DNA of 64,000 bases from assembly GCA_029972225.1 (NCBI GenBank), contig CP124756.1, positions 1,160,001-1,224,000 of the forward strand. The letters run 5' to 3'. This stretch comes from Candidatus Thiothrix putei. GTDB taxonomy: Bacteria > Pseudomonadota > Gammaproteobacteria > Thiotrichales > Thiotrichaceae. Below are positions 9,837 to 35,345 of the stretch, one piece after another (within the stretch, counting starts at the first letter, position 1; the number at the start of each line of letters is the position of its first letter). Position numbers and translations under genes: made by a program. The notes under the pieces are model-generated. The model saw only the letters and a program-made list of their open reading frames with translations. It had not been told where the DNA came from and made no database searches.

Positions 9837-9867
9837 AAAAAAAAGCTACACAGGGGAACCGGTAGCT
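9837..9867 (-). terminator. Probable intrinsic terminator for regulator A
   Basis: Read on the minus strand, AGCTAC pairs with GTAGCT around a GC-rich loop and is followed by eight T. It lies about 110 bp past the stop of the regulator A remnant. The upstream flank (CCCTCGCAAG) recurs before the hairpin at 13262-13285. Confidence 0.5.
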
Positions 9868-9900
9868 GTAACTTGCGAGGGATTTTTGTGTTTTTATGAC

Positions 9901-9940
9901 GAATTTAAACCAGAGTCCTGCACGACTCTGGTTTAAATTC
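9901..9940. terminator. Perfect 17-bp stem-loop after prfC
   Basis: GAATTTAAACCAGAGTC, a six-base loop CTGCAC, then the exact reverse complement. The outer half of the stem is A/T-rich on both sides, so it can act as a bidirectional terminator between prfC (+) and the convergent regulator A gene (-). It could also be a protein-binding palindrome. Confidence 0.55.
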
Positions 9941-9979
9941 TAGCAGCATAGTGTAGCGCCCGTAAGTAACGGCTGGCTG

Positions 9980-10221
9980 TTACCGTAAGTTCTGGGGTAG
10001 GTGTGACCAGATTTGCTGGATAATGCGGTTCGTTTGTTGCGGGAAATCGTGTGTCAGTTTACGACTGGTCTGCGCAAAATTAGGGTGTTTATTCTGCAAC
10101 TGCCGGTATTCCTTCGCTCCTTGTTCAAGCTTGTGATTACATTGATAAAATGCCGTGCGTAGCAGCGGTGTCCAGAGGTGGTTGAATCTGACCTTGTTAA
10201 TTTCCTGCATGGCTTTTAAAT
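9980..10221 (-). pseudogene. Regulator A, C-terminal fragment cut off by IS4
   Basis: In frame this reads LKAMQEINKVRFNHLWTPLL and about 65 further residues to a TAA at 9980. It matches the C-termini of paralogues B and C (EARKIRLKNIWGSLLRSAL in C). Joining it to the 11844-13151 part with one TAAAT copy gives ...HYREGRYLKAMQEINKVRF without a frameshift. It has no start codon or ribosome-binding site of its own apart from the internal ATG at 10210. Confidence 0.85.
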
Positions 10222-13252: not shown

Positions 13253-13285
13253 CGAAAAAAAGGCTATCAGTCGGGGCTGATAGCC
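13253..13285 (-). terminator. Hairpin plus T7 in the leader of regulator A / after the giant gene
   Basis: GGCTATCAG and CTGATAGCC form a perfect 9-bp stem with a six-base loop, followed on the minus strand by seven T. It lies 189 nt past the giant-gene stop and about 100 nt before the regulator A start. It may terminate the giant gene, or act as a leader attenuator of A, because the shared operator lies upstream of it. Confidence 0.75.
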
Positions 13286-13384
13286 TTCAGGGCTTGCGAG
13301 GGATAGTGTGTTTTTTAAAATTAATTACTAATAGAGTGTTAGTGTGTAAATCTTAACAACAGGTGAACAGTAACATCGTGTAAC

Positions 13385-13427
13385 CGTGAACAATAGTAAC
13401 CAAAACATGTTACCCAAAATGTTCACG
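13385..13427. promoter_or_regulatory. Candidate operator, site 1 (upstream of regulator A)
   Basis: The inner dyad GTAAC-N8-GTTAC is at 13396-13413, nested in outer arms CGTGAACA (13385-13392) and TGTTCACG (13420-13427). Extra GTAAC half-sites lie at 13370 and 13380, and GTGAACA recurs at 13363. The same dyad with the same spacing stands before the giant gene, regulator B and regulator C. It is the best conserved of the four and nearly matches site 4 over some 40 bp. Confidence 0.65.
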
Positions 13428-13473: not shown

Positions 13474-16400
13474 CTATTTGGGAAGCCCTCCATTAATGAC
13501 ATAGTTGGCCGCAAAAGTGGCATTGCCTGGGTGTAATAAGACGTTGCCCAACAGTGGGTTAATGTCATTATTGGGGCCTGCGTATAAGGTCAGACCGTCC
13601 AAGTTCACGTCGGTATTGTAGTACCCTTGCAAGCTGTAGTTGACGTTGGCGTCTGCATTGCCTGTCTGGGTCAGGATAGTTCCCAAGATCAGGTTGCTGT
13701 CATTACCAATGCCGTTAGCAATGATACTGCTGCTGGTATTGGCATCACCTGCCCACATCAGCGCCACTGTTTTGCCATCCATACGGTCATGGAGACCAAA
13801 CGTGATGGTTGCTGGTAAGGTGAAGTCTACTAGCTTCGCCGTATCACTGGATAATACCTGAGGCAACTTGGTGTTGACACCCAAGTGGTTACGGTGGCGT
13901 ACCGCGACGTGGTAGAGACCTGCTTTGATGCCGCTGAAGCCCAACGTTGCCGTGCCTGTGTCAGCATCCACAATGTCACCGTCCCGTTGTACGACCGCCG
14001 CTTTTGCTGCCACTACCTTGGTTGCCAACAGCGGGTCGCGCAGTTCCACCAGTACCCAGTCCGTCATGGCATCGTTGCCCGTTATGGCTTTGACGGCAGT
14101 GCTGAGTTTTTCCGTACCGACATGATTCCAAAGTGCACCACTGTAAGGTTGGTTATCAGGGATCAGCCCTTTGCTACGCAGCTTGTCGTGCATCGTGCCA
14201 TCGAGGCTATTGTAAGCCCCTTGCAGGAAGGCGCGTACCTCAATCTTGACATTGGAGGTATTGCTACAATCCTGTGGTGAGCCGTAATTGCCAACATAGT
14301 GGTTTTCACCCGCCGCCCCCCAGCCTACGTTGTTGAACTGGTTGCCGGGGTTAGTATTGGCAGAGTTTGGCAAGGTGTTGAAGGCATCCGTGTTCTCCAT
14401 CACGCTGACATTGCCGCTGCAATCGCTGTTGTTGGTGAAACTGAATACCTCGATTTCCTGTCCGGCTTTCCATCCAAAGGCACTGCTGCCGGTGGGTGAG
14501 AAGGTGAAGGACAGGTAGTCAGCTCCCAATGCCTCGGTCGGCGCATCACTACGGGAATTCAGTTCCCATTGCACACCGCTGACAGCACTCTTCAGGTCAG
14601 TGACCGCAAACTGGTTTGCGCCTGTTCCATGTGGCACTTTCAGGGTGATTTGCCCGGTCATGCTCAGGTTGTTGCTCGGTGTCGCTTGCGGGCGCATATA
14701 CACACGGTAGCGGTTGGAACCGGCATCACGGCGGACAGTGTATTCCAGTACCGGCTCGGATTCGCTGGTCACAGTCACGATGATCACGTGTGATGTACAG
14801 ACATTGCTGCTGTCGCAGGCTTTTAGTACCACGATGTAGGCATTGTCCTTGTTGGCATCCTTGGGGGCTTCATAGTCCGGTGGGGCTTTGAAGGTCAGTA
14901 TGCCAGTGGTCGGATCAAGGTTGAACAGGGCGTTATCCGTTACCCCGCTGTTGTCCAGCGTGTAGGTGACAGAACCATCGTCGGTTGCCTTGACTTCCAT
15001 GACTACACCCGTGCCGTTTTCACCATAAGCCACGCTGTTGCCGGAGGTGAATTGCGGGGCAGTGTTGGGCTTGCTGTTGGCATCCAGCGGGTCAGTGCCT
15101 GCGGTTTTTTCCGCAAGATTGCCGTAGCCATCAGCGTCGGAGTCGTTGTTCGGGGCAAGGTCATCGGCATCCAGCTCATCCTCTACGCCGTCGTTGTCAG
15201 CGTCAAGGATGGCGGATTCGAGCGCGTCGATTTTGCCGTCACCATCGGTGTCAATCGGGCTGGCAGGGTTTGCACCTACTTCCTCGCCGTCTTTTTTGCC
15301 GTCACCATCGGTGTCGTCTTTCAACGGGTCAGTACCTAGGGTCTTTTCACTGATGTTGCCGAGACCGTCCCCATCGGAGTCATTGTTGGGGTTGGCATCG
15401 TCGGCGTCGAGTTCATCCACCACGCCGTCATGGTCGCTGTCGGCTTTGGCGGATTCGAGCGCGTCGATTTTGCCGTCACCGTCGGTGTCCACTGGGGCGT
15501 TCAGGTTTGCGCCTACTTCGGTTTTGTCGTCCTTGCCGTCGCCATCGGTGTCAGCCAGCAGCGGATTGGTGCCAAGGGCGGCTTCTTCCGTGTCGAGCAG
15601 ACCGTCGTTGTCATCGTCAGTGTCTACCACATCGGCAATACCATCCCCGTCGGTGTCCACCGGCTTGCTGGTCGGGTCGAGTGGGTTGCTACCGGCGGCT
15701 TTTTCCACGCTGTTGGGGAAGCCGTCGCCATCACTGTCGTTGTCAGGGTTGGCGTCGTCGGCATCCAGCTCATCCACCACACCATCATTGTCACTGTCGA
15801 GGATGGCGGATTCGAGCGCGTCGATTTTGCCGTCACCGTCAGTGTCAACCGGGTTGCTGGGGTTTGCGCCCACTTCGGCTTTGTCGTTTTTGCCATCACC
15901 ATCGGTGTCAGCCTTGCTTGGGTCAGTGCCAAGGGTGGCTTCTTCCGCGTCGGTCAGACCGTCACTGTCGGCATCGGGCAGGTCAGCATCCAGCTCATCC
16001 ATAATGCCGTCACCGTCGGTGTCGATAATGGCGGATTCCACCGCGTCGATTTTGCCGTCACCATCGGTGTCAATCGGGCTGGCAGGGTTTGCACCTACTT
16101 CCTCGCCGTCTTTTTTGCCGTCACCATCGGTGTCGTCTTTCAACGGGTCAGTACCTAGGGTCTTTTCACTGATGTTGCCGAGACCGTCCCCATCGGAGTC
16201 ATTGTTGGGGTTGGCATCGTCGGCGTCGCGTTCATCTACCACACCGTCGTCATCGGCATCGAGGATGGCGGATTCGAGCGCGTCGATTTTGTTGTCACCG
16301 TCGGTGTCAACCGGGTTGGCAGGGTCTGCGCCCACTTCGATGCCGTCTTTCTTGCCGTCACCATCGGTGTCAGCCTTCAGCGGGTCAGTGCCGAGGGCTT

Positions 16401-19400
16401 TTTCTTGGTCATTGCTCAAGCCGTCATTGTCAGTGTCATTCGTGCCAGTGGTATCGTCGGCATCGAGTTCATCCACCACGCCGTCATTGTCACTGTCGAG
16501 GATGGCGGATTCGAGTGCGTCGATTTTGCTATCGCCGTCGGTGTCAATCGGGCTGGCAGGGTTTGCACCGACTTCATCGCCATCCTTCTTGCCGTCACCG
16601 TCGGTGTCATCGCTCAGCGGGTCAGTGCCGAGAGCTTTTTCCTGGTCATTGCTCAGGCCGTCATTGTCGGAGTCGTTGTTAGGGTTGGCATTGTCGGCAT
16701 CGAGTTCGTCCACTACGCCGTCATTGTCACTGTCGAGGATGGCGGATTCGAGCGCGTCAATAATGCCATCACCATCGGTATCCCCTGGTGAGTTGACATT
16801 AGTGCCTACTTCGTCCTTGTCGCTTTTGCCGTCACCGTCGGTGTCTGCCAGATTTGGATTGGTGCCAAGGGCGGCTTCTTCCGCATCTGTCAGGCCGTCG
16901 CCATCGGTATCGGTGGCTGCGGGTTTGCTGTCGGAGTCGCGGGGATCCGTACCCGCCAGCTTTTCGGTTGCATTGCTGAAACCGTCACCATCCGTGTCGT
17001 TGTTGGGGTTGGCGTCTTCAGCATCGAACTCATCCGCCACACCGTCATTGTCAGCGTCAAAGATGGCGGATTCGAGCGCGTCGATCTTGCCGTCACCATC
17101 GGTGTCAACCGGGTTGGCAGGGTCAGCACCGACTTCCGCCGCATCCATTTTGCCGTCACCGTCGGTGTCAGGGTTACGGGGGTTAGTCCCCAGGGTTTTT
17201 TCCTGGATGTTGCTCAAGCCGTCAGCGTCGAAATCGTTGTTGGGGTCAGCATCGTCAGCGTCGAACTCATCTGCCACACCGTCATCGTCGGCGTCGAAGA
17301 TGCTGGATTCGAGTGCGTCAATCTTGCCGTCACCATCGGTGTCGAGTGGGGAAGCAACATTGCCGATTTCAGCGAGGTCGTTTTCGCCGTCAGCGTCGGT
17401 GTCAGGGTTACGCGGGTCAGTGCCGAGGGCTTTTTCCTGCGCGTTGCTCAGACCATCGCCGTCAGTGTCGTTGTTGGGGTTGGCGTCGTCGGCATCGAAC
17501 TCATCTGCCACGCCGTCAGCGTCGGCGTCGAGGATGCTGGATTCGAGTGCGTCGATTTTGCCATCACCATCCGTGTCGGTAGGCGTGGCAATGTCTGCCC
17601 CGACTTCTACTGCATCCAGCTTGCCGTCGCCGTCGGTGTCATCGCTTAGCGGGTTAGTGCCGAGGGCTTTTTCTTGCGCGTTGCTCAGGTCGTCGCCGTC
17701 GGAGTCGTTGCCGCCAGTGGTGTCATCGGCATCCAGCTCATCCATTACGCCGTCATTGTCACTGTCGAGAATGGCGGATTCGAGCGCGTCGATTTTGCCA
17801 TCACCATCGGTGTCAATCGGGTGGGCAGGGTCAGCACCGACTTCATCACCATCCTTTCTGCCGTCAGCGTCGGTGTCGTCTTTCAGCGGGTTAGTGCCGA
17901 GGGCTTTTTCTTGGGCATTGGTCAGACCGTCGTTGTCAGAGTCGTTGCCGCCAGTGGTGTCATCAGCATCCAGCTCATCCACCACACCATCATTGTCGCT
18001 ATCGAGGGTGCTGGATTCGAGCGCATCGATTTTGCCATCACCATCGGTGTCAATCGGGTTGTTGATGTCTGAACCGACTTCTTCGCCGTCGGGTTTGCCG
18101 TCGCCGTCAGTGTCTGCCAGGTTGGGGTCAGTGCCGAGAATGGCTTCTTGGCTGTCAGTCAGACCGTCACTGTCGCTGTCACCATCAACCGCAGCCTTGA
18201 CAGTCACGGTGGTGGTGTTGGATTTCAGGGGCTTGGGCATGAAAGCCGTGGGGCTGTCTTCCGGGGTGATTTCTGCCGCTGTCACCATCTGGGTATCCAG
18301 TGCCAGGTCGTTGCTGTTGGCCTGGATGGTCAGGGTGGATGTTCCCACAGGTACGGTCATGCCGACGATTTGCAGGTTGCTTTCGGCTGCGTAATCACCA
18401 ATCACAGTACCGCCGTTGCTGTTGGTCAGAGTGTTGGCAACGAAGCTGGAGCCTGCCCAAGGTGCAGTACGGAAGTTCACTTTAACCGGGTTACTTTCAG
18501 TGTTGTTGAACGTAACCGTGTAAGTGAACGTGCCGTTTTGTGGCACGGTGGCTTTGTCCGCTGTCATGGAAACGGCAACGTTAGCGGTCGCGTAAGGTTG
18601 CGCACTGATCACCACCGGGGTGGGGTCAGCACCGCCTGCCTGTGCCGGGTCATCGGACAGGTAGTGGTTGCCATTGACCGTGAAGCCCGCCTGGTTTTGG
18701 AATGTGCCTTGTGCCGCAGCGGTAGCATCCAGCATCAGATAAGACTTGCCGGGTGGCAGGGTAATGGTGGTGCTGAAGTTCTGGCTGTCTTTGTAGTCAT
18801 TGGTATCAGCCAATGTCAGACCTGTTGCCAGTGAATCATCCGCCCATTTCAAGCCTGCGGGCAGGGTATCGCTGAAGTTAACGGTTTTTGCACCGCAACT
18901 CAGGTTTTCCAGCTCGAATTTGAAGGTGACATTATCGCCCACGAAATTGCTGCCACCGGATACCAGTTTACGGATGTAAACATTGTCCGGGGCTGGCGGC
19001 GGTGGTGCGGTCTGACATTGCACATCAATACCTTTCACCTGAATGTCGTTGAACATGTGGGAAATGTTGTAGGTGTTGATGAGGGTGTAGTCGATCTGCA
19101 CGGTGTCTACCGGGCGGTCAAAGTTGATGAACACGCGCCCAGGATTCAGGCAATTCCAGCCCAGTGTGCCGCCTTTGGCTTCGTCAATCGCGGGCAAGGT
19201 TGCCGCCCACTTGGTGTAGTATGGGGTTTTCGCCAGTGACAGTTTGGGGGAAACGGTAGTGCCGCCCAGTTTGCCGGTGATTTTCAGGTGATCCTGGTTG
19301 ACGTAGTAGTCCACGTCGCACACTTCCATGCTGACACTCATCGCCGGTTTGTCCATCGCCATTTTGAAGGTGATGGGTTGTGCGCCTTGCGCAGACGTTG

Positions 19401-22400
19401 ACCAACGTGGAATCCAGATGCTCTTCCAGTATTGGACGGGGTAATAGTCCACCTGTTGCAGACCGAGGTTGCCCGCTTTGCCGTACCAGATGTCATCGCC
19501 TGCTGCATCAATGGTAAAAGTAAAGGTTTGGTCGCCTTTGGTGATGGTCTTGCTGTTCGTACCCCAAGCCCAGCCTTCCGTAAACCAGTCGATGCTCTTG
19601 TTGCCGCCAGTACAGATATTGGCAGGCAGGGAAGTATTGCCCGCAAAGGTGATGTACTTGGCGCTGTTGGCCGGGAGGTTGTAAGAGGTCAGGAACTTGC
19701 CATCCACAGTTGCCGTAACCGGCACGGATTCGTAGGTGGTGAAGTCGGCATCGTCAGATACCAGCATGAAAATCTGGGCGCTGGTGTTGAACGGCAGGGA
19801 ATCCAGTTGCAACTGGACACTGCCCACATTGCCGGTTTCCTGCACTTTCCAGATGCGCTGGACACGCTTCTCGGTGACACCGGGAGGCGCACACTGGGCA
19901 ACGTTCATATCCACCAGCACGCTGTCATCGAGGCCGTTGTCGCCCCACACCAGATAACTGGCGTTGTTGGCGAAGCTGTTGGCATTGTCAGCGTTGGTGG
20001 CGGCAATGCTGCCCAGGCCAACGGTCAACTGCCTGCCAGCATTGACGGATTTGGACTGCTTCTGGTTGAGGTTGGAAGCGTCGTCGCGGGCAATACCGGC
20101 CACGTTGTTGTGGTAAGCAGTGCTGGCGGTTTTGTCCCATACCTTGGTCGTGCCATCTGCCGCGATGTAGTCATCGGTCAGGGTGATGCCGTACTTGATG
20201 GCGAGGTAAGTGTTTACCTGCATCATTTCGGTATCGCTCAAGTCGCGGTTGTAGACGATGCTCTCGGTCATCAGGCCGTTCAATGGTTCACCTGCGCCGT
20301 CGGTTTCCGCACCGATGTTCAGGTTGTTGTTGCCACCGGAAGCCGGGAATGTACCGTCCGCGCCCGTGAACGTTTGCACATTGGCAAGGCCGTCGTAACC
20401 CAGACGCACATCCTTGGGGCTGGCGTTGTTGGCACGGGTGTGCATGATGGTGGGCGTATTCACGGTAACGCTATTGGCGTGATCCATGTGCAAGGTGGTG
20501 ATGTCGTCAATGTAGGTGTTGGGTTTGTCGTTGTACCAGTGCATCGACGGGTAATCCGCCGCACCAGAGAAGGACACCAGCGTCTTGTAACCACCCGACG
20601 TAGTGCGGTTGGTGGAGACAGATACCATCGTGACGGGATCAGTCTGGCTGGTCAGGGTCTTGTTGCCGCTGTTGGTGGCACTCAATACCTGCGCACCAGC
20701 AAAATCTACCGCTGGGTTGAAGTTCAACGCATTGGCAATGTAGTTAGGCTGGCGGGTTACAACCGCTTGGCTCACATCGTTCTTGGCTGGGCTGCTGTCT
20801 GCCCAAGTGGTGACATCCGCGTTATTGATGGTGGTGGATGTACCGGAATCGGCTTTCAACCATAAGCCTAAGCCATTGGCAACGCCGCCCGGTGCAGTTA
20901 GTTCGGCACCAAAGGTGAAATATTGCCCATTGGCAAAGTCCACCGTAGCAACGCCGTTGCTGGTGGCAATTTCAGTTACGCCCGTAGCGAAGGTTGGGTC
21001 ATTGCTGACCAACAAGTGTTTTGCACCTGCTGCTTGCACTTTGACTTCCCCAATCGTGCCGCTTTCTTGCACTTTCCACACGCGGTTCATGCGGTAGTAG
21101 CCGGTAGTCGGGGTATAGCTGTTAGGTGCGTAAGTGGTGGCGTAGCCTGTTGTGCCGTTGTTGCCGCCCCAGACCAGATAGCTGGAATCTGCTGCAAAAG
21201 TGCCGGTATTCGCCGCATTGGTTGCGGCAATTTCCCCTAGCCCGATGACGGGCTGGAAACCGGCGTTGACAGAACGTGACTGTTTCTGCTTCAGCGCGGA
21301 GGCATCATCACGCCCGATACCGGCGATGTCATAACCGTAAGCCGTGTTGGTGGTGGCATCCCAGATTACGCTGCCATCGTTGGCGACGTAGTTGTATTGG
21401 TTGCCGTTGTTACGCACATGCCCATTGCCTTGCCCCAAAGTAACGCCGTACTTGATGGCGAAGTAGGAGTTGACCTGCGCCATTTCGGCAGCACTCAGGT
21501 CACGGTTGTAGGCCGCAAATTCGGGGATGCGCCCTTTCCACAATTCCACTCCCGTGCCATTCAGCGGGCGGTCTGCACCGATGGTGGCATTGGTGAGCAT
21601 ATATTGCTGGAAGGTTAGGCCATCAACGATGGGGCTCCAGTTCGGGTCATCCTTGAAACCGTCCGTCCAGGTATAGAAACGGTCTGTTGTCGCACTGTTT
21701 TTGGAATGGAAACCGACGATTTGTGGTTGCGCATGTTGGGTACTGCCATCGCTGGTGAAGTTTGTGCCGTTCCAGTAGCCGTTTGCTCCGCCTGCTGGAG
21801 AATATTTGGTGCCTTTACCCATGCTGCCGCGATCACCCAGATGAGGGGCACTGTGGGATTGCCCACCAACAGCATAAGGGATCCAGCCGTTGTCCCCGGT
21901 TGCGCCACCTTGCTTGTAGAGGCCGAAATAGTCCACGAATTTTTCAGCACCGAAGATTTTACGGTAAGCGGTGCTTGGGTCTTCGTCCACACCGACCGAC
22001 ATGAAAGTGTAAGGGGAATTGCTGGCCATCAGGGCTGTATCGTTGCCCAGATAGTCGCCTGTGCCGTCGAAATCCACTACAGGGTTGTAGTTCAGCAGTT
22101 TGCTGGCATCGGTGCTGTAGAAGGTCGGCTGGGCGGTGGCAGTGGCTTGCGTGAAGTTGTAGCTATTGGCAGATTGGTCAAGCCAACTGGAGACGGCGGC
22201 ACCATCGGCACCGCTGATGCCTGCATCGGCCTTGACCCAGCTCGCCAGACCGTCAGCTACGCCGCCCGGTGCGGTGCTGACTTCGCCGTTAAGGGGCGTA
22301 ACCGCTGGGTTGTTGTCCGGGTCATTGCTGGTAACTTCCAGGCTGGCTGACTTTTTGCCAAACACGGTGTTGGTGAATTGCATGTCCACAGTACAGGCTT

Positions 22401-22572
22401 CATTGGCATTGAGTGTTAATCCATCGCTACACGTGGTGTTGGTAATACTGAAAGTGGCAGCATTCGTGCCTGTGATGCTAAGTGGAGAACTGCCCAGCAC
22501 CAATGGAGCTACGGTATCAGCAACCGATGCACCCGATGTGAAATTGGTGACATCAACAGGGTAAACGGTCAT
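13474..22572 (-). pseudogene. Giant TSP3-repeat surface protein, C-terminal 3029 residues (5' end cut off by IS66)
   Basis: Order from the N-terminus: an ASH/choice-of-anchor-D-like domain (residues ~5-95); two ~400-residue lectin-like modules, each with WLKAD/WVKAD...[20 protein letters not shown]; a region with [11 protein letters not shown]-type features; and a DUF11-like domain ([34 protein letters not shown]). Next come about twelve 78-residue thrombospondin-3-like Ca-binding units ([13 protein letters not shown]...[15 protein letters not shown]) plus shorter ones. A cadherin-like domain follows ([35 protein letters not shown]), then a C-terminal [14 protein letters not shown] module with an NTDVNLDG Ca loop. 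The only nearby ATG (22572) lies inside the IS66 end, so the fragment has no signal peptide. Joined with 24935-26199 it makes a 3447-residue secreted protein. Confidence 0.85.
15164..18180 (-). repeat. Tandem ~235-bp TSP3-type coding repeats
   Basis: About twelve full units of 78-79 codons and three short ones, all in frame within the giant gene and rich in Asp codons. Copies at 15223-15409 and 16042-16228 look identical over about 187 bp (offset 819 bp = 273 codons), which points to recent internal duplication or gene conversion. Calcium binding by the DxDxDG loops is expected from the family. Confidence 0.8.
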
Positions 22573-24188
22573 TCTAGCCCGTCGTTGATATCCGCAAACA
22601 AATCCGAGCGCAATGGCTTATCCGCAAACCGTTGTTTCCAACATCTTGGCGTAAGGTCTTGCACCTGAGAAGCGGGATGCTCACTAACGCGCAACAGAAC
22701 ATCCATCAGATAGACATACGGGTTAATGTCATGCAGGCGGCAGGTGGTGATCAGGCTTTGGATGATGCCCACGTGTTCCGCGCCGAGTTCTGTCCAGCAG
22801 AACAACCAGTTTTTCCTGCCCATGGGGATGGGCCGCAGGGCGCGTTCGATGTGGTTGGTATCCATTGGCACGTCGGGATCTTCCAGAAACACGCGCAGTT
22901 CGTGTTCGCGGCGGATGACATAACCAAGGGCTTTGGTCAGCGGGTTGGAGGGGACTAAATCGGTACGTTGTAATTGGGTTTGGCACCATTCAAAGAACTG
23001 GTCGACCAACGGCTTGCTGTGGGTGAGGCGGTAGGTACGTTTGGCTTCCCCGTCGAGTTTTTTCTCGTTAATCTGGGCTTCGTGCTGATAGAGTGCCGCG
23101 ATAGTGTCAAGGGCTTGGCGTACTGCTTGTGGTTCAGCGGTTTCGGCGGCAATGAAGGTGCGACGGCTGTGTACCCAGCATTGGGCATGGGTAATCTTGT
23201 CATTGGCGTTGACGTAACTGGCATAAGCACGGTAACCGTCGCTGAGCAGTGTGCCGCTGAACTGTTGGCGAAGAGTCTTTTCAATGTGTTGCCGCCCACG
23301 GCTGGCGGAGAAGGTGAAGACGATTTCGTCCTGATCCCCGTACAGCGGCCAGAAGTAGCCTTGCTTCATCTTGCCGTTGCCTGCGGGGCTGGCTTTGATG
23401 GGGGTTTCGTCCATCGCCAGCAGCTTGCTTTGCAGTACACTGGCGAGTTGCGCTTCGGCAATGGGTTTGAGCAGGTCGATGGCACGTTTCACCGCATTGG
23501 TCAGCGTCGTGCGGCTGAGGGTGATCCCCGCTTGGGTCAGGCGTTGGTGCTGGCGGTACAACGGCAGGTGGTACTGGAACTTGTCCACCAACATCCCCAC
23601 CAAAAAGCTGACATCGGTGACACTACGTTCCAGCACGTTGGCGGGTGCAGGGCTGGGAAGTGGTGGGTTGCTGAGCGAAGCCGAAGCACTGCCCTTACGT
23701 TTGATGACCGGGCGCTCGTATTGCAGGATGAGGTAGCTGGCAGGGCGTTGCGCCACCCGATGGGTCACCTGGGTGCCGATCACCTCATACTGGTCAGCCT
23801 CTTCCCCCTGAAGTTCCGGCGGGGTGAGGTGAATCACCTTGACCGGGACATCGGCGGTAAAGCGTAACCCGCTGTCATTCACGCAGTCATCGGGGCGCAG
23901 CTTGGGGGCTTTGCCGCGTTGGTAGGTGACGGTAATGCTTTCACCCTCGGGTGCGGCAACTGGGGCGACTGCGGGGGCAAACAACGGCAACTGCGCCACC
24001 GGTATCTCAACCGGACGCTTTTCCGATTTGCTGCCAAAGACATGTTGCCTGAACCACGCCAATTGGCGTTTCAATTCAGCTATATCCTGTTTCAGGGCAG
24101 CATTTTCCTCACGCAACGCCAGCATTTCCGCCACAATCGGCGGCATGGGAACGCTGGTGTCAGACGGGGTGGATGGCTTTAAAATCAT
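22569..24188 (-). CDS. tnpC: IS66 transposase TnpC
   Basis: A 539-residue IS66 transposase: N-terminal coiled coil ([37 protein letters not shown]), DDE blocks around [24 protein letters not shown] and [30 protein letters not shown], and the usual C-terminal tail reaching the IS end. The start overlaps the tnpB stop by 4 bp. No frameshift is seen. Confidence 0.93.
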
Positions 24189-24559
24189 GGGCTTATTGTA
24201 CCAGAATGTGGCTGCACAGGATACTGGTAACGCTTGAATTGTCTGGATTTTTGCACCTCAATGCCCGCCAAAATCAACTGCAAATCCGTCCGGGTCAGTT
24301 CGCGCTGCCCGCTGGTTGTCGGCTGCACCCGGTATTGGCCCTGCTCCAGGCGTTGGCTCCATAAGCAATAGCCGCTGGGTTCAAAATAGAGGATCTTCAT
24401 CTGGGTTTTACGTAGGTTCACAAACACGAAATAATGCCCACTCAGGGGATTTTGCCCTAACTGGTTTTTCACCAAAGCGGTCAGCCCCGTAAAGCTTTTG
24501 CGCATGTCGGTGGCTTGGGTGCATAGCCAGATGCGGGCGGTGGCTGCGGGGGCAAACAT
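24185..24559 (-). CDS. tnpB: IS66 accessory protein TnpB
   Basis: 124 residues with the IS66 Orf2 signature: RIWLCTQATDMRKSFTGLTALV, DPLSGHYFVFVN-like QNPLSGHYFVFVNLRKTQMKILYFEPSGYCLWSQRLEQGQY. It sits between tnpA and tnpC with start/stop overlaps on both sides. It is needed for transposition in studied IS66 elements. It is unrelated to the RNA-guided TnpB at 30416. Confidence 0.92.
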   Translation of the reverse strand: MFAPAATARIWLCTQATDMRKSFTGLTALVKNQLGQNPLSGHYFVFVNLRKTQMKILYFEPSGYCLWSQRLEQGQYRVQPTTSGQRELTRTDLQLILAGIEVQKSRQFKRYQYPVQPHSGTISP

Positions 24560-24849
24560 CAGCGTTGGCTCAGGCGTAGTTCAACACCATTCCCCAAACT
24601 CAGCACAATGTGCCAGCCTTGCCCCAGCGCGGCATGACCCGCCGATAATGCTCCCAAGTCGATGAAGGTATTGGCGGGAACGGCTGGTTCCTCCACGCCA
24701 TCTGCGGAGCGTAGACGCTGCCGCCATTGGCAAAAACTGGCGTAACCGATACTGTGCTGTTCACAAAATGCCGGGGCGGATAAGCCGCTGGCTTGCCATT
24801 GGCTGATGAGGGTTTGCCATTCGCTGGCACGGCGGTGAGGGCGTTTCAT
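24559..24849 (-). CDS. tnpA: IS66 accessory protein TnpA
   Basis: 96 residues with a helix-turn-helix pattern (WQTLISQWQASGLSAPAFCEQHSIGYASFCQWRQRLR) typical of IS66 Orf1. It is the first gene of the element, begins about 85 bp inside the right terminus, and its stop abuts the tnpB start. Confidence 0.9.
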   Translation of the reverse strand: MKRPHRRASEWQTLISQWQASGLSAPAFCEQHSIGYASFCQWRQRLRSADGVEEPAVPANTFIDLGALSAGHAALGQGWHIVLSLGNGVELRLSQR

Positions 24850-26368: not shown

Positions 26369-26386
26369 GTAACGCTTATTTGTTAC
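26369..26386. promoter_or_regulatory. Candidate operator, site 2 (upstream of the giant surface gene)
   Basis: GTAAC GCTTATTT GTTAC: the same 5-8-5 dyad as at the three regulators, 170 bp before the giant-gene start and 14 bp after the regulator B stop. Between it and the start lies a short hairpin (CGGC...GCCG near 26290-26305). Confidence 0.6.
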
Positions 26387-27779: not shown

Positions 27780-29161
27780 GAGCCACTTGCAAAATTACAT
27801 TTTCAGCGTAAACCTTCCTTCATCTGAAGGAAAAAAGAAGTGTGGGCTGCCGTTTTCGGCGATAATAGAAGCGTCAAAACAACCATTAAGCCCACGCTAT
27901 GAATTCTACCGAACGCGCCCTGATTGCACAACGCTGGAGTTTGCTGCAAATTGAAATACTACCTTGCTTCAATGATGCCTTTGGCACATTGACCCCCAAG
28001 CTTGAAAAACTCATTCACGTACTGGAGCTGACGCGCATTGAAGATTTTGTGCGCTCTTTTCGTGATGGGTCTGGACGGCCAGCGACGGAGCGATCTTGGT
28101 TTGCCAATGCTTTTGTCGCCAAAAGCGTGCTCAATATTGTCAATACGCGAGCACTCATTGACCGGCTGCAAAACGATCGCTCCCTGCGACGCATCTGCGG
28201 GTTTCCCCTGACCAAGAAACTGCCTTCCGAATCCACCTTTTCACGTGCCTTCGCTGAATTTGCTGAACAGCGTTTAGCGGAACGTGTGCATGAAACGTTG
28301 GTGAAAACGTATTTGGGCGATGCGCTGATCGGCCACCTGTGTCGGGATTCAACAGCCATTGAGGCACGTGAACGGCCTGTTGCCGAGGAAAAGCCAAAGA
28401 AAAAACAAGGGCAAACACGGATTCAGCGCCAACGGGAACAGTCACTTCAGCAAGCACTCGATGAGATACCGGTTCAGTGTAACCGGGGGACGAAGAAGAA
28501 TGCCCAAGGCTACAAGCACAGTTGGAACGGCTACAAACTGCATATCGATACCGCCGATTGTGGTGTCCCGATAGCAGCCATTCTGTCTTCCGCCTCGTTT
28601 CACGACAGCGGGGCAGCCATCCCACTCTCTCAAATCAGTGCCCAACGTGTCACCAGTCTCTACGACCTGATGGATGCAGCCTATTGCAGTGCTGATTTGC
28701 ACGAATACAGCCGTCATCTGGGGCATGTCCCTCTGATTGATCACAATCCTCGCGGCGGACAGAAAGAAGCGTTTGAACCTGCTGATGCCGAGCGTTACAA
28801 AATTCGCAGCACCGTAGAACGAACCAATGCCCGCCTGAAGGATGAATTTGGTGGTCGGAATGTGTGGGTGCAAGGTGCGCAAAAAGTTTACAGCCACTTG
28901 ATGTTTGGGATTTTGGTGTTGAGTGCTGATCAACTGATGCGTGTCTTGTTATAAAGCGACTGGGTTTGAAAAAACACGGGAAGACTGACTGAAAAACAGG
29001 AGCAGTCGCATCGGTATGGGTGAAATTTAGCAAAAGTTACGGTAAAACTGAAAAAGCTCAGGTTTCGTTGGTCAAATTGAGTAAAAAATCGGCTGAATAT
29101 GCGGCGTTCGGTCAATGCTGAAAATTGAGCAACTCAGTTTGTCGGATTTTGCAAGTCGCTC
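27780..29161 (+). mobile_element. IS5/IS1182-like element in regulator B
   Basis: The terminal inverted repeat GAGC(C/G)ACTTGCAAAAT is at 27780 and 29161, with a 4-bp direct repeat CACT at 27776-27779 and 29162-29165. The element is 1382 bp with one transposase gene on the plus strand, opposite to regulator B. Removal restores SELDSVLKSRHFRS across the junction. Confidence 0.87.
27899..28954 (+). CDS. DDE transposase with DUF772-like N-terminus (IS5/IS1182-like)
   Basis: A 351-residue protein with the N-terminal block LRRICGFPLTKKLPSESTFSRAF (InsH/DUF772 type). Then come GHLCRDSTAIEARERP (first Asp), PIAAILSSASFHDSGAAIPL and YDLMDAAYCS (second Asp), and YKIRSTVERTNARLKDEFGG (Glu). It appears intact. 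The exact family (IS5 against IS1182) is not settled by eye. Confidence 0.88.
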   Translation: MNSTERALIAQRWSLLQIEILPCFNDAFGTLTPKLEKLIHVLELTRIEDFVRSFRDGSGRPATERSWFANAFVAKSVLNIVNTRALIDRLQNDRSLRRICGFPLTKKLPSESTFSRAFAEFAEQRLAERVHETLVKTYLGDALIGHLCRDSTAIEARERPVAEEKPKKKQGQTRIQRQREQSLQQALDEIPVQCNRGTKKNAQGYKHSWNGYKLHIDTADCGVPIAAILSSASFHDSGAAIPLSQISAQRVTSLYDLMDAAYCSADLHEYSRHLGHVPLIDHNPRGGQKEAFEPADAERYKIRSTVERTNARLKDEFGGRNVWVQGAQKVYSHLMFGILVLSADQLMRVLL

Positions 29162-29346: not shown

Positions 29347-29364
29347 GTAACCGCAAATTGTTAC
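29347..29364. promoter_or_regulatory. Candidate operator, site 3 (upstream of regulator B)
   Basis: GTAAC CGCAAATT GTTAC, again the 5-8-5 dyad, 143 bp before the regulator B start and 39 bp after the regulator C stop. A partial copy (GTAATAGTTAC) lies nearby at 29315-29325. Confidence 0.6.
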
Positions 29365-30268: not shown

Positions 30269-31661
30269 ACAGTTACCATAAAATCTATCTAAATCTATTC
30301 AAACTTTATCATTTTGGTTAGGTTTATAAAAGCGTAGTGCCGTTTATCCGTAAAAGATAGCAGCAAAAGCACGGATGACTAGACAACTATCACACCGTGC
30401 TGCATTCTGTTTGCCATGATCATCAGCCACAAAATCCGCCTTGACCCCAACCATAAGCAAGCGACGTACTTGGCGAAAGCCGCTGGTACAGCACGGTTCG
30501 CCTACAACTGGGCGTTGGCAGAATGGCAAACCCAATACGCCGCATGGAAAGACGATAACACCCAGCCAAAACCCAACCAAATGGGCTTGCGCCGCCAATT
30601 GAACGCCATCAAACGCGAACAATTCCCCTGGATGCTGGAAGTCACCAAAAACGCCCCACAAATGGCAATTATCCAACTCGGCGCAGCTTTCAAGAACTTC
30701 TTTGCGGGGCGAGCCAAGTACCCGCAATTCAAAAAGAAAGGTAAAAGCCGCGACAGTTTCACCCTCACCAACGACCAGTTCAGCCTTGACGGTTGCCGCA
30801 TCCGCATTCCCAACCTTGGGGTAGTACGGATGCGGGAAACGTTACGCTTTTCCGGTAAAATTCTCTCTGCCACGATTTCCCGCACCGCTGACCAGTGGTT
30901 CGCCAGCATCACCGTGGATACCGACCAACATCATCTCCCGCCTGCCAAAAACCAAGGCACGGTAGGGGTGGATTTGGGCGTATCTGCACTGGCAACCCTA
31001 TCAACGGGGGAAAAAGTGGTTGGGGCAAAGCCGCATAAAGCCTTGCTTTCCCGCCTAAAACGGCTCTCGCGCAGCCTGTCCCGCAAGGTCAAAAGCAGTG
31101 CCAACCGCCACAAGGCGAAGCAGAAGCTGGCAACACTTCACGCACGTATTGCCAACATTCGCCAAGACAGTTTGCACCAACTCACTACGGATTTAACCCG
31201 CCGTTTTCACACCATCGGTATTGAAGATTTGAACGTGTCGGGTATGGTGAAAAATCGCCATTTATCCCGTGCCATCAGTGATATGGGGTTTTTCGAGTTT
31301 CGCCGTCAACTGGAATACAAGGCGGAAATGCGCGGTGCGGTGGTCGTGGTGGCTGATCGGTTTTTTGCCTCCAGCAAAACCTGTTCTGCTGCTGGCTGTG
31401 GGCATAAAGTGGACAAGCTGCCACTGTCGGTGCGTGAATGGACTTGCCCCGTTTGCGGTGCAGTCCATGACCGTGACGTAAATGCCGCCAAGAATTTAGA
31501 AGAATACGCCGTGAGTTACACGGTGTCTGCCTGTGGAGGGGAAGGCTCTGGTCTTGGGCGCAAGCCGAAGACGAAACCAGCCCCCGTGAAGCAGGAATTC
31601 AACACCATGACTACTTTTAGTTAGCTATAGGTAGATTTGGGTAGGTTTGAAATAACGGTAA
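30269..31661 (+). mobile_element. IS200/IS605-type element with a lone TnpB, in regulator C
   Basis: There are no terminal inverted repeats and no target duplication. The left end follows TTTGAA, which would be the target and TAM for this family. The right end keeps a similar AGGTTTGAA stretch. No TnpA transposase is present, so the element is non-autonomous. The boundaries were set by restoring the regulator C frame (A-M-L-Q-T-P-I-F) and are accurate to about one or two bases. Confidence 0.75.
30416..31624 (+). CDS. tnpB: RNA-guided endonuclease TnpB (IS200/IS605 OrfB)
   Basis: 402 residues. The N-terminal part resembles OrfB_IS605 (MIISHKIRLDPNHKQATYLAKAAGTARFAYNWAL). The RuvC catalytic residues are visible as GVDLGVSALATLS (Asp), GIEDLNVSGM (Glu) and HDRDVNAAKNL (Asp), and the zinc finger as CSAAGC...CPVC. 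All key residues are intact, so nuclease activity is likely. In characterised members an omega-RNA is transcribed from the right end of the element and extends into the flank, here regulator C from 31662 on. Confidence 0.92.
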   Translation: MIISHKIRLDPNHKQATYLAKAAGTARFAYNWALAEWQTQYAAWKDDNTQPKPNQMGLRRQLNAIKREQFPWMLEVTKNAPQMAIIQLGAAFKNFFAGRAKYPQFKKKGKSRDSFTLTNDQFSLDGCRIRIPNLGVVRMRETLRFSGKILSATISRTADQWFASITVDTDQHHLPPAKNQGTVGVDLGVSALATLSTGEKVVGAKPHKALLSRLKRLSRSLSRKVKSSANRHKAKQKLATLHARIANIRQDSLHQLTTDLTRRFHTIGIEDLNVSGMVKNRHLSRAISDMGFFEFRRQLEYKAEMRGAVVVVADRFFASSKTCSAAGCGHKVDKLPLSVREWTCPVCGAVHDRDVNAAKNLEEYAVSYTVSACGGEGSGLGRKPKTKPAPVKQEFNTMTTFS

Positions 31662-32137: not shown

Positions 32138-32719
32138 TCAACCGCCCATAATTGCAGATTCCTCAAAGGTCTGAAAGTTGAGAGTCAGCAAGGAGTCCAA
32201 GGCTTTTTTATGCGTAGTGTGGGTTTGTGCCAAACAGGCATCAATGGCCTGCGCAAACGCGGTAAAGTTTTCATGGTAACGTGAATACAGGCATTCCTTC
32301 TTCACAAACTTCCAGAGGCGCTCAATCAGGTTCAGGTTGGGGGAATAAGCGGGTAGGAACAACAGTTCGATCCCGAGTGTTTGGGCGAATGTTTGTACCA
32401 GGCTACAGCGCTGGTAACGGGCATTGTCCATCACCAAGGTCACCGGGACATCCAGGGCCAATGCCTTGATTTGCCGAAGCAACTGACAAACACTTTGGGA
32501 GTTGATGTAACTGTCATTGGTCACGGTGACCAGTTCATGGGTGACTGCATTCAACGCACCGAGGACATTGTAGCGCTGGCGTCCGGCAGGGGCGCGGATG
32601 AACAGCCGGGTGAAACACCACAGGAACCCCAGAAACGGGGCCAGGACAAAATGGGCGGCGTCGACAAAGAAAACGGCGCGTTTTCCGGCCTTGGCCTCCT
32701 CAAGACGCGGCTCCAGCTC
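32138..32719 (-). CDS. IS630 transposase, DDE half (orfB frame)
   Basis: In this frame from the A7 run: ELEPRLEEAKAGKRAVFFVDAAHFV (first Asp), VPVTLVMDNARYQRC (second Asp), LLFLPAYSPNLNLIERLWKFVKKECLYSRYH (final Glu). An internal ATG at 32554 would give only 138 residues without the first Asp, so a functional enzyme needs a frameshift from orfA. Confidence 0.85.
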   Translation of the reverse strand, partial: ELEPRLEEAKAGKRAVFFVDAAHFVLAPFLGFLWCFTRLFIRAPAGRQRYNVLGALNAVTHELVTVTNDSYINSQSVCQLLRQIKALALDVPVTLVMDNARYQRCSLVQTFAQTLGIELLFLPAYSPNLNLIERLWKFVKKECLYSRYHENFTAFAQAIDACLAQTHTTHKKALDSLLTLNFQTFEESAIMGG

Positions 32720-33233
32720 TTTTTTTAAAAGTCTCCTGGGCAGCAGGGTCGGCTTTCGCCGGTATCATCCCCACCTTCCTGACGGACAAACCCAAGTCAT
32801 GCAGGAATAGCCGCACGGCTTCCCGCTTGAGTTCAAGGCCGGTTAAGCGCTGTATATCAGCGATCGCCTGACTGATCCGGGTCGGTGGATGCTTCTCAAA
32901 ATGTTTCTTCAGGGGCTCACGGAAAGGTTCCAACCGGCGGGTTGGGCGACGGAAATCCAGTTGTTCCAAGGCAGCGATCCCACCTTGTTGGTAACGTTTC
33001 AAATAACGGGTGACCGTCGTTGAACTCACCTGTGCCAGCCGTTCAATGTCCCCATGCGCCATTCCCTGGCTTTTTAGCCACAACACTTCCATCCGTTGGC
33101 GGACGCGAGGGTGGGCATGGCGGTAACGCCCCTCATTCAAGGCGGTTTGATCGGATTCGCTGAAGTCTATCTGGATCATGGAAAGGACGACCGGTTGCCA
33201 ATAACAGCCGTACTTTGCTTGAGGGCTTCTCAT
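32700..33233 (-). CDS. IS630 transposase, helix-turn-helix half (orfA frame)
   Basis: 177 residues with the IS630 N-terminal double HTH: HPRVRQRMEVLWLKSQGMAHGDIERLAQVSSTTVTRYLKRYQQGGIAALEQL, and ISQAIADIQRLTGLELKREAVRLFLHDLGLSVRK. It reads into seven consecutive A (TTTT then A7, at 32720-32726 on the minus strand) and stops shortly after. A +1 slip (or loss of one A) joins it to the DDE half. Programmed frameshifting and simple mutation cannot be told apart here. Confidence 0.85.
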   Translation of the reverse strand: MRSPQAKYGCYWQPVVLSMIQIDFSESDQTALNEGRYRHAHPRVRQRMEVLWLKSQGMAHGDIERLAQVSSTTVTRYLKRYQQGGIAALEQLDFRRPTRRLEPFREPLKKHFEKHPPTRISQAIADIQRLTGLELKREAVRLFLHDLGLSVRKVGMIPAKADPAAQETFKKRAGAAS

Positions 33234-33261
33234 TATTCAACAGCTATTCACGGGCAAAGTA

Positions 33262-33512
33262 TAGTTTTCTAATTGTTTACGTAAGCGTCCTGCCTGCATT
33301 CGTATCAATGGATCAATGCCAGCATCAAAATCGGCGGGTTTACCCAAACCCTCTACCGCAATAGAATATTGATCAATGTTGGCTTGGCTTTCCCCTAACG
33401 CTCTTTCAACAATATACGACAAGAATTTTTGCAGCATCCTATACGAACGGAAGCCGCGACTCTCAAGTATGCGCCCTAATTCAGCACGGATGGCGGTGTT
33501 ATCTCTCTGCAT
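33262..33512 (-). pseudogene. Regulator C, N-terminal part
   Basis: MQRDNTAIRAELGRILESRG, then FRSYRMLQKFLSYIVERALGESQANIDQYSIAVEGLGKPADFDAGIDPLIRMQAGRLRKQLENY, interrupted at IS630. The ATG at 33512 aligns with the A and B starts; the frame is open further up to 33599 but those residues include the leader hairpin. The restored C protein would be 528 residues. Confidence 0.85.
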
Positions 33513-33545
33513 GAGAGCCATTCTATCTCTACATTCATCTTTTTC

Positions 33546-33580
33546 AAAAAAAAGCCATCCAGCAACGTTTTCTGGATAGC
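33546..33580 (-). terminator. Attenuator-like hairpin plus T8 in the leader of regulator C
   Basis: On the minus strand GCTATCCAG and CTGGATGGC pair (one G-U) and are followed by eight T, only 34 nt before the regulator C start. No minus-strand gene lies upstream (trxC diverges), so it cannot be an ordinary terminator of a preceding gene. A TTTACACACT motif occurs upstream both here and before the hairpin in the regulator A leader. Confidence 0.65.
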
Positions 33581-33670
33581 CACTTAACTTTAAGGACAAA
33601 GACTTGAAGGTTAGAGAGTGTGTAAATGCTTACAGCCCTGAATGCTAACAGGTCAATCATTGAAGCAATA

Positions 33671-33699
33671 GTAACAGATATTTGTTATAAACAATGTTC
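33671..33699. promoter_or_regulatory. Candidate operator, site 4 (upstream of regulator C)
   Basis: GTAAC AGATATTT GTTAT at 33671-33688, preceded by TGAAGCAATA and followed by TGTTCA (33694-33699). It mirrors site 1, including its outer arm. It lies 159 bp upstream of the regulator C start and 75-100 bp upstream of divergent trxC, so it might touch that promoter too. Confidence 0.6.
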
Positions 33700-33773
33700 A
33701 GCGGCGATGCTTTAAAATGGGGAAGTTCAGCCCATATTGGCTCTATTGAAATCATTGCGTTTGAGGATAAAAC

Positions 33774-34208: not shown

Positions 34209-34255
34209 TCCGCGTATACTCTGTGGTTATTCATTATGGCTACAGAGGTTTTCTT

Positions 34256-34630
34256 ATGTCCCCGAATTTTCTTAACGGCATCACGTTGTTGTTGGTTTAT
34301 CAATTAGTGGGCGAAGTCAGCACGCGCTTGCTGAATTGGCCTGTACCAGGGCCAGTATTGGGTATGCTGTTATTATTCATCACTTTATTGCTGAGCGATG
34401 GCTTGGCGTCTGTAGTGGAGCCTGCCTCCAGTGCCTTGCTGAGCCATTTGTCGTTGCTGTTTGTGCCTGCTGGTGTAGGGGTGATGGTGCATGTTGGGCG
34501 TATCGGCTCGGCATGGTTGCCGATCAGTATGGCATTGATTTTCGGTACACTCATCACAATGGCAGTGACGGCTTGGGTGATGGTGGGAATGCAACGCTTG
34601 TTGGGGAGGAAGTCTACACATGATGCCTGA
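34256..34630 (+). CDS. lrgA: CidA/LrgA family holin-like membrane protein
   Basis: A 124-residue protein with four hydrophobic helices: NFLNGITLLLVYQLVGEVSTRLLNWPVPGPVLGMLLLFI is the family signature (PGPVLGM), and SHLSLLFVPAGVGVMVH follows. The ATG at 34256 (after a GAGG site) is preferred to the frame-open ATG at 34223. In Staphylococcus this family controls murein hydrolase activity and also transports small metabolites. The stop overlaps the lrgB start by about 11 bp. Confidence 0.88.
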   Translation: MSPNFLNGITLLLVYQLVGEVSTRLLNWPVPGPVLGMLLLFITLLLSDGLASVVEPASSALLSHLSLLFVPAGVGVMVHVGRIGSAWLPISMALIFGTLITMAVTAWVMVGMQRLLGRKSTHDA

Positions 34631-35345
34631 TACAAATCTGGAACAAGTTTGGGTTTACCTGTCTGCCTCGCCGTTGTTTGGTTTGACCATGACCTTAATT
34701 GCCTACGGCATCGCTTACCGGGTGTATGTATGGAGTAAAGCGAATCCCTTGCTGAATCCGGTGGTAACGGCGGTGATTTTACTCATTGCCTTGTTAGTAC
34801 TGACGGATACGCCGTATCAGGATTATTTCGAAGGCGGGCAATTTGTGCATTTTTTACTAGGGCCTGCGACAGTGGCATTGGCTATTCCGCTGTATCGGCA
34901 ATTGGGTAAGTTGAAAATGCTGTGGTTGCCGGTGTTAGTGGCTTTGTTGGTTGGCGTGACAGTGGGCGGTGTTAGTGCCGTGGGGATCGCATGGTTATTA
35001 GGGGCAGATACGCCAATTTTACTATCGCTTGCTCCAAAGTCGGTCACAGCGCCTGTGGCTATGGGGATTGCGGAGCGCATCGGCGGTATTCCGTCACTCA
35101 CTGCGGTGTTGGTTGTGATGACGGGGGTTATTGGCGCGGTGTTGGGGACGAAATTGTTCGATGTGTTACGTATTCGGGATTGCAGTGCGCGTGGGATTGC
35201 GATGGGCGTAGCGGCACACGGTATTGGTACGGCACGTGCGTTTCAAGTGAGTACGGAAATGGGCGCTTTTGCGGGGTTGGCAATGGCATTGTCCGCATTG
35301 CTGGCGTCAGTCATTTTGCCGTGGTTGTTAGGGTGGATGAGGTAA
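34620..35345 (+). CDS. lrgB: LrgB/CidB family membrane protein
   Basis: 241 residues and mostly hydrophobic, with the LrgB signature SLAPKSVTAPVAMGIAERIGGIPSLTAVLVVMTGVIGAVLG and ARGIAMGVAAHGIGTARAFQ. It is partnered with the LrgA-like gene upstream and overlaps it. An ATG three bases further (34623) is an alternative start. Confidence 0.92.
   Translation: MMPDTNLEQVWVYLSASPLFGLTMTLIAYGIAYRVYVWSKANPLLNPVVTAVILLIALLVLTDTPYQDYFEGGQFVHFLLGPATVALAIPLYRQLGKLKMLWLPVLVALLVGVTVGGVSAVGIAWLLGADTPILLSLAPKSVTAPVAMGIAERIGGIPSLTAVLVVMTGVIGAVLGTKLFDVLRIRDCSARGIAMGVAAHGIGTARAFQVSTEMGAFAGLAMALSALLASVILPWLLGWMR

Follow-up and report, generated by a model that had tools for sequence, protein, structure and literature searches.

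On balance, the hairpin in the leader of regulator gene C seems to end a small RNA (sRNA) some 90 nt long rather than to switch gene C. A regulated promoter, made of the palindrome GTWAC-N8-GTWAC and an extended -10 and lying 60-100 nt upstream, would start this RNA, and the intrinsic terminator would end it at about 90 nt. The trxC-prfC interval would hold several copies, this one among them, of an RNA whose main copy is probably transcribed by a neighbouring ECF sigma factor. In such an RNA an unpaired C-rich box before the terminator, CUCCCUCGCAA, would pair with purine-rich, Shine-Dalgarno-like mRNA sequence near ribosome binding sites, in the manner of a trans-acting sRNA; the C-type RNA would be a copy that kept the promoter, the 5' motif and the terminator and lost the box. 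Production of the RNAs, their ends, their action and targets and the descent of the C type are read from sequence throughout.

The stem and eight T that the original prediction placed 34 nt ahead of the C start codon were recovered on the minus strand of the window (the whole 64-kb stretch analysed) as GGCTATCCAG-AAAACGTTG-CTGGATGGC followed by eight T (33581-33546). The arms GGCTATCCAG and CTGGATGGCT pair 33581-33572 with 33562-33553 in a 10-bp stem, and the T run occupies 33553-33546. The ATG of C at 33512 lies 33-34 nt past the hairpin; an alternative in-frame ATG is found at 33521. As also predicted, only the divergent trxC (33774, plus strand) lies upstream, and the A leader carries a comparable hairpin with seven T, AAGGCTATCAG-CCCCGA-CTGATAGCCTT at 13287-13260 with its T run through 13255. 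When a perfect stem of at least 8 bp plus at least seven T was demanded, these two hairpins were the only ones on both strands of the window, and 20 dinucleotide shuffles of the window gave none. A looser terminator scan of the window found no excess of terminators and overlooked the C hairpin owing to its 9-nt loop. The C stem is retained in four of four relatives with a variable loop; two one-sided changes and no compensatory ones were seen across them, and the alignment documents conservation of the stem, not covariation. That the C hairpin is a real transcription stop, terminating a leader-like RNA early, is well supported by these features, and this part of the original prediction stands. 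The purpose it assigned to the stop, attenuation of the regulator, is unsupported in view of gene-less copies and of leaders with neither leader peptide nor antiterminator, as set out below.

Both leaders lie behind a promoter-like module in which the palindrome GTWAC-N8-GTWAC is followed, after about 23 nt, by a -10 hexamer. With up to one mismatch allowed, the window holds 14 palindrome sites where 4.2 are expected, a number that no shuffle out of 100 reached; the palindrome stands upstream of the C and A leaders, of B and of a gene for an RCC1-like protein, and also behind A. Among the 17 modules that the window and its relatives provide, some of them orthologues and hence not independent cases, TANNNT occurs at one fixed distance from the palindrome in 15 (the best unrelated offset reaches 5), and TG precedes it in most. 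The common motif said to precede both hairpins was confirmed: TTTACACACT matches exactly at 33626-33617 and 13350-13341 and nowhere else in the window. Taken alone it is not beyond chance, with 4 sites at one mismatch against 3.8 expected in the window; the composite GTTAC-N18-22-TGNTANNNT-N5-25-ACACACT has exactly two occurrences in the window and is absent from all 100 shuffles. TTTACACACT sits equally far behind the module in the C and A leaders, so that it would fall close to the 5' end of the RNA, about 90 nt long, that the hairpin ends. Its use as a -35 box was ruled out, the fixed -10 being upstream of it. The similarity of the C and A leaders was matched by 1 of 500 shuffles over the whole leader and by 0 of 500 when the terminator was removed; the C leader resembles the A leader beyond chance, and the main family copy (see below) not.

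In five other Thiothrix genomes the cluster starts behind divergent trxC, as in the window, and in four of the relatives (G012, G005, G001 and G009) an ORF of 47-48 codons (MTGTNLSTCPKCGSPARRIRPNWWQRLFSQKIRYRCQCCGKRFWRGG in G012) stands between the same hairpin and the regulator gene. Aligned with G012, the window is missing about 200 nt, the ORF included. The product of about 48 aa has the appearance of a small zinc ribbon, with weak Pfam similarity; between G012 and G005, 16 codon differences in it are silent and 5 change the amino acid. Small ORFs of this type (CPxC...CxxC) occur in the trxC-prfC clusters of relatives, at times away from gene C, and are absent from the window. Since the relatives carry the ORF between hairpin and C, the 34-nt spacing is, on this comparison, a secondary product of deletion and not a conserved arrangement. 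The deletion also set TTGAAA and TAGAAT 16 bp apart at 33547-33520 (10 of 12 consensus positions), which may be a new promoter or chance. This match, right after a terminator that adjoins the divergent promoter, would suit a hairpin that only insulates, blocking stray transcription from the trxC side while the regulator is read from a later promoter. We consider such an insulator improbable: a conserved promoter module 60-100 nt upstream feeds the terminator, the 5' motif between them is conserved, and the match, made by a local deletion, may be fortuitous (11 promoter-like sites against 9.3 expected). A transcription start between hairpin and start codon, which the original prediction had set against itself, gave a divided answer. 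A-type leaders carry extended -10-like sites at this place by sequence, TGTTATACT in the window and its counterparts TGGTATAAC and TGGTATACC after the terminator in relatives, but no convincing, conserved promoter precedes the ORF in the relatives of C.

Table 1. Coordinates of the leaders, predicted RNAs and associated features (window positions unless a locus is named).
Feature	Position	Strand	Remark
Intrinsic terminator, C leader	33546..33581	-	10-bp stem, 9-nt loop, 8 T
TTTACACACT in C leader	33617..33626	-	near predicted 5' end of short RNA
Predicted extended -10 (TG-T-TAGCAT), C leader	33642..33650	-	predicted start about 33635
Palindrome ATAAC-N8-GTTAC, predicted regulator site before C	33671..33688	-	closest relative has GTAAC
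Predicted short RNA, C type, about 90 nt	33546..33635	-	inferred from promoter and terminator
Deletion point of zinc-ribbon ORF	33533		
Regulator C, N-terminal part	33237..33521	-	rest at 32166-31621 and about 30260-29403
Promoter palindrome before B	29347..29364	-	
Promoter palindrome before RCC1-like protein gene	26369..26386	-	
Promoter module of A leader RNA	13367..13413	-	
Box CCCTCGCAAG and terminator, A leader, family member	13255..13302	-	R1 match
Second extended -10-like site TGTTATACT, between A terminator and start codon	13202..13210	-	
Stand-alone copy behind gene A	9837..9983	-	palindrome, extended -10 TGCTAGAAT, 5' hairpin, box CCCTCGCAAG, terminator
Zinc-ribbon ORF in relatives	L046:18314-18174, L047:7500-7357, L049:2400-2543, L048:6049-6192, L052:3248-3391, L050:997-1125		

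By sequence, the A leader and the copy at 9983-9837 belong to an RNA family of the Thiotrichaceae that consists of the box CUCCCUCGCAA plus a terminator. A pattern search for the box with a T run was positive in 16 of 16 Thiothrix genomes and found nothing with the reversed control. The common, or main, copy, which all 16 carry, sits between an ECF sigma gene and fbp and is transcribed divergently from the sigma gene. A covariance model (R1) built from 14 main copies only contains three base pairs with changes on both sides; it matches the A leader (E 5e-4 in 143 kb; E 0.0145 in the complete genome of 4.28 Mb) and also finds main copies throughout the family, other genera included. In those genera the sigma gene is constant and the downstream gene varies: fbp follows the main copy in two genera, the glutathione synthetase gene gshB in two, and a convergent bioF-like aminotransferase gene in another. 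The sequence GAACC-N16-CGAC stands ahead of the RNA in 25 of 28 loci, against an expectation of about 0.004 per kb, and in 16 loci it precedes the sigma gene as well. Among 369 genomes of the class the exact family pattern matched two genomes, both from the family itself. The loose-pattern matches listed from a collection of 84,980 genomes comprise 80 loci, 8 of them with a T run behind the stem; among the matches listed, all 8 adjoin an ECF sigma gene, seven carrying Thiothrix, Cocleimonas or Thiotrichaceae names and the last (L168), filed as Proteobacteria, being identical to a locus of the family set. The main locus of one Thiothrix genome (G007) is identical to that of Thiothrix fructosivorans. 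Covariance-model searches of Rfam gave no match above threshold for the C leader, the A leader or the box family.

Two further elements surround the main RNA. TATAAT just before the box is constant in Thiothrix and two near genera, where a second start is possible on sequence grounds; as a family-wide promoter it was rejected, being absent from the copies of other genera and from the A, stand-alone and G013 copies. In most Thiothrix genomes the main RNA's terminator is immediately followed by TTTACAA and, about 16 nt on, by ATATCAT (L066:1541-1614 and equivalents), possibly the fbp promoter.

The stand-alone copy has its box at 9881-9872, with box and terminator spanning 9881-9837; it has no downstream gene on its strand, prfC being convergent. 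A long perfect inverted repeat, AATTTAAACCAGAGTC...GACTCTGGTTTAAATT, lies at 9945-9900, directly after its extended -10. The box CCCTCGCAAG also precedes the terminator in the orthologous A leaders of G005, G001 and G009, which were located through homology of the genes, without use of the box. In G014 the trxC-prfC interval lacks a regulator gene and contains a box-type copy, and in G006 two copies follow trxC. A-type copies with no downstream gene, together with a sigma-linked main copy whose neighbour varies, argue for a stand-alone sRNA and not a cis attenuator.

Attenuation, in which polymerase would halt at the hairpin unless a signal permits read-through into the regulator gene (and the zinc-ribbon ORF where present), is to us rather unlikely. 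The terminator does lie between a conserved promoter and a gene, for C in five genomes and likewise for A, and after the C hairpin the ORF and gene C follow directly in relatives, with no convincing second promoter. Against this, neither an ATG leader peptide nor a conserved antiterminator was found in the C or A leader, and Rfam holds no riboswitch that matches them. Moreover, the family includes the gene-less copies just described (9983-9837, and that between trxC and prfC in G014), the genes behind main copies change from fbp to gshB to a convergent aminotransferase, A-type leaders have a promoter-like site past the terminator, and the 34-nt spacing at C stems from deletion. Attenuation confined to C is possible on sequence grounds but not supported. 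The predicted RNAs, by comparison, each have their own promoter module and their own terminator, and neither the C nor the A leader contains an ATG.

Whether the C-type RNA itself belongs to the family was judged from the box and from models. The box CCCTCGCAA stands in the A leader and at 9881-9872, but the C leader and the C orthologues lack it before the terminator, and the C leader is absent among R1 matches up to E 10. In the covariance search in relatives that the original prediction had proposed, a C-type model (R3), run on 40 sampled genomes of the family, gave strong matches only in the window and G012. The position of C beside trxC is that of the box-type copies in G014 and G006, which makes a diverged copy reasonable. 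The C-type RNA may thus be, at best, a diverged relative with the same promoter and 5' motif, its own terminator and a lost box. In all cases found it precedes the ORF and gene C; independence from the downstream gene is seen for the A-type family only.

A, B and C are paralogues, and none is whole in this strain. Two insertions, an IS630-like transposase gene pair (32138-33233) and a TnpB-type gene (30416-31624), divide C into three pieces. In B the N-terminus is missing and a TAG interrupts the reading frame, and in A a transposase gene (10331-11752) has entered near the C-terminus, leaving the tail readable at about 10180-9980. With gene C broken, its control is hardly a present function. 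The C leader could accordingly be a functionless relic, the leader of a gene destroyed by insertion sequences, a reading that we hold possible although doubtful. It is favoured by the damage to all three genes (C split by two IS elements, A cut by a third, B carrying a stop codon and missing its N-terminus), by the decay of the leader half-site to ATAAC and by the loss of the zinc-ribbon ORF. The C terminator and -10 are, however, still intact, and the A-leader and stand-alone copies are identical to those of G012 across the RNA, except for one T in the stand-alone terminator run.

At least five transposase loci broke the cluster (10331-11752, 22569-24849, 27899-28954, 30416-31624 and 32138-33233). 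The prfC-trxC interval (8224-34208) is variable in Thiothrix, some genomes having regulator copies, RNA copies and adhesin-like and RCC1-like genes, and G014 having the RNA copy alone. It contains an ORF of 3032 aa (13474-22572) with many calcium-binding-type DxDGDG repeats; its start abuts an IS66-type element, so the ORF may be truncated. Behind trxC, two genes at 34223-35345 overlap and encode small membrane proteins that look like LrgA/LrgB (CidA/CidB).

The name regulator for C is plausible, from a structure model, and not proven. No Pfam family covers its N-terminal domain. AlphaFold2 modelled this domain with a pLDDT of 91, and the 20 best structural matches are all OmpR-family DNA-binding domains (Z 6.1-7.5); Foldseek alone gave a best E of 0.25, which is not significant. 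Regulators of the HilA type have an OmpR-like winged helix at the N-terminus and a TPR region behind it. The predicted C protein would share this order with HilA/CadC/ToxR-type proteins, and differs in a domain that is not in Pfam and in structural similarity that is moderate (best Z 7.5).

A wider scheme can be put forward only tentatively, as an unlikely one in its entirety. An sRNA controlled by an ECF sigma factor would have been copied into the trxC-prfC interval and put under another regulator, perhaps the local winged-helix TPR proteins; the copies would act on the same targets as the main sRNA or compete with it for them, and the C type would carry a new pairing box, UUUGUCCU. A search for complements of the box before start codons gave 38 matches against 19 for the reversed control, a twofold excess that is not usable as a target list. 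If the preferred reading of a short RNA is true, it would bring to the filamentous sulfur bacteria a sigma-linked family of small RNAs that is found neither in Rfam nor in the papers searched, and would present sRNA copies relocated under a second regulator beside genes for surface proteins and regulators. Our literature search found no work on Thiothrix sRNAs and no described sRNA for filamentous sulfur bacteria.

Alphaproteobacterial CcsR/cuckoo RNAs and NfeR1 carry anti-Shine-Dalgarno loops, with a C-rich unpaired motif before the terminator stem. Like them, the Thiotrichaceae box is C-rich and predicted to be unpaired before a terminator stem; unlike them, its motif is CUCCCUCGCAA, it is a single box, it occurs in another bacterial class and its pairing is predicted. 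The terms cuckoo RNA, sRNA and anti-Shine-Dalgarno occur in PMC10746234. With attenuators and terminating riboswitches the C and A leaders share the order of promoter, short leader, intrinsic terminator and gene, but they have no leader peptide, conserved antiterminator or Rfam family, and the downstream gene is not constant. A terminator before a gene says little in favour of attenuation until copies elsewhere have been looked at. The nearest known systems are the sigma-E (RpoE)-dependent sRNAs MicA, RybB and MicL of enterobacteria (PMC8103513). In contrast to these, the Thiotrichaceae family has no Rfam match and a different box; its main copy and the sigma gene are immediate, divergent neighbours, and its extra copies stand behind a promoter that is unrelated.
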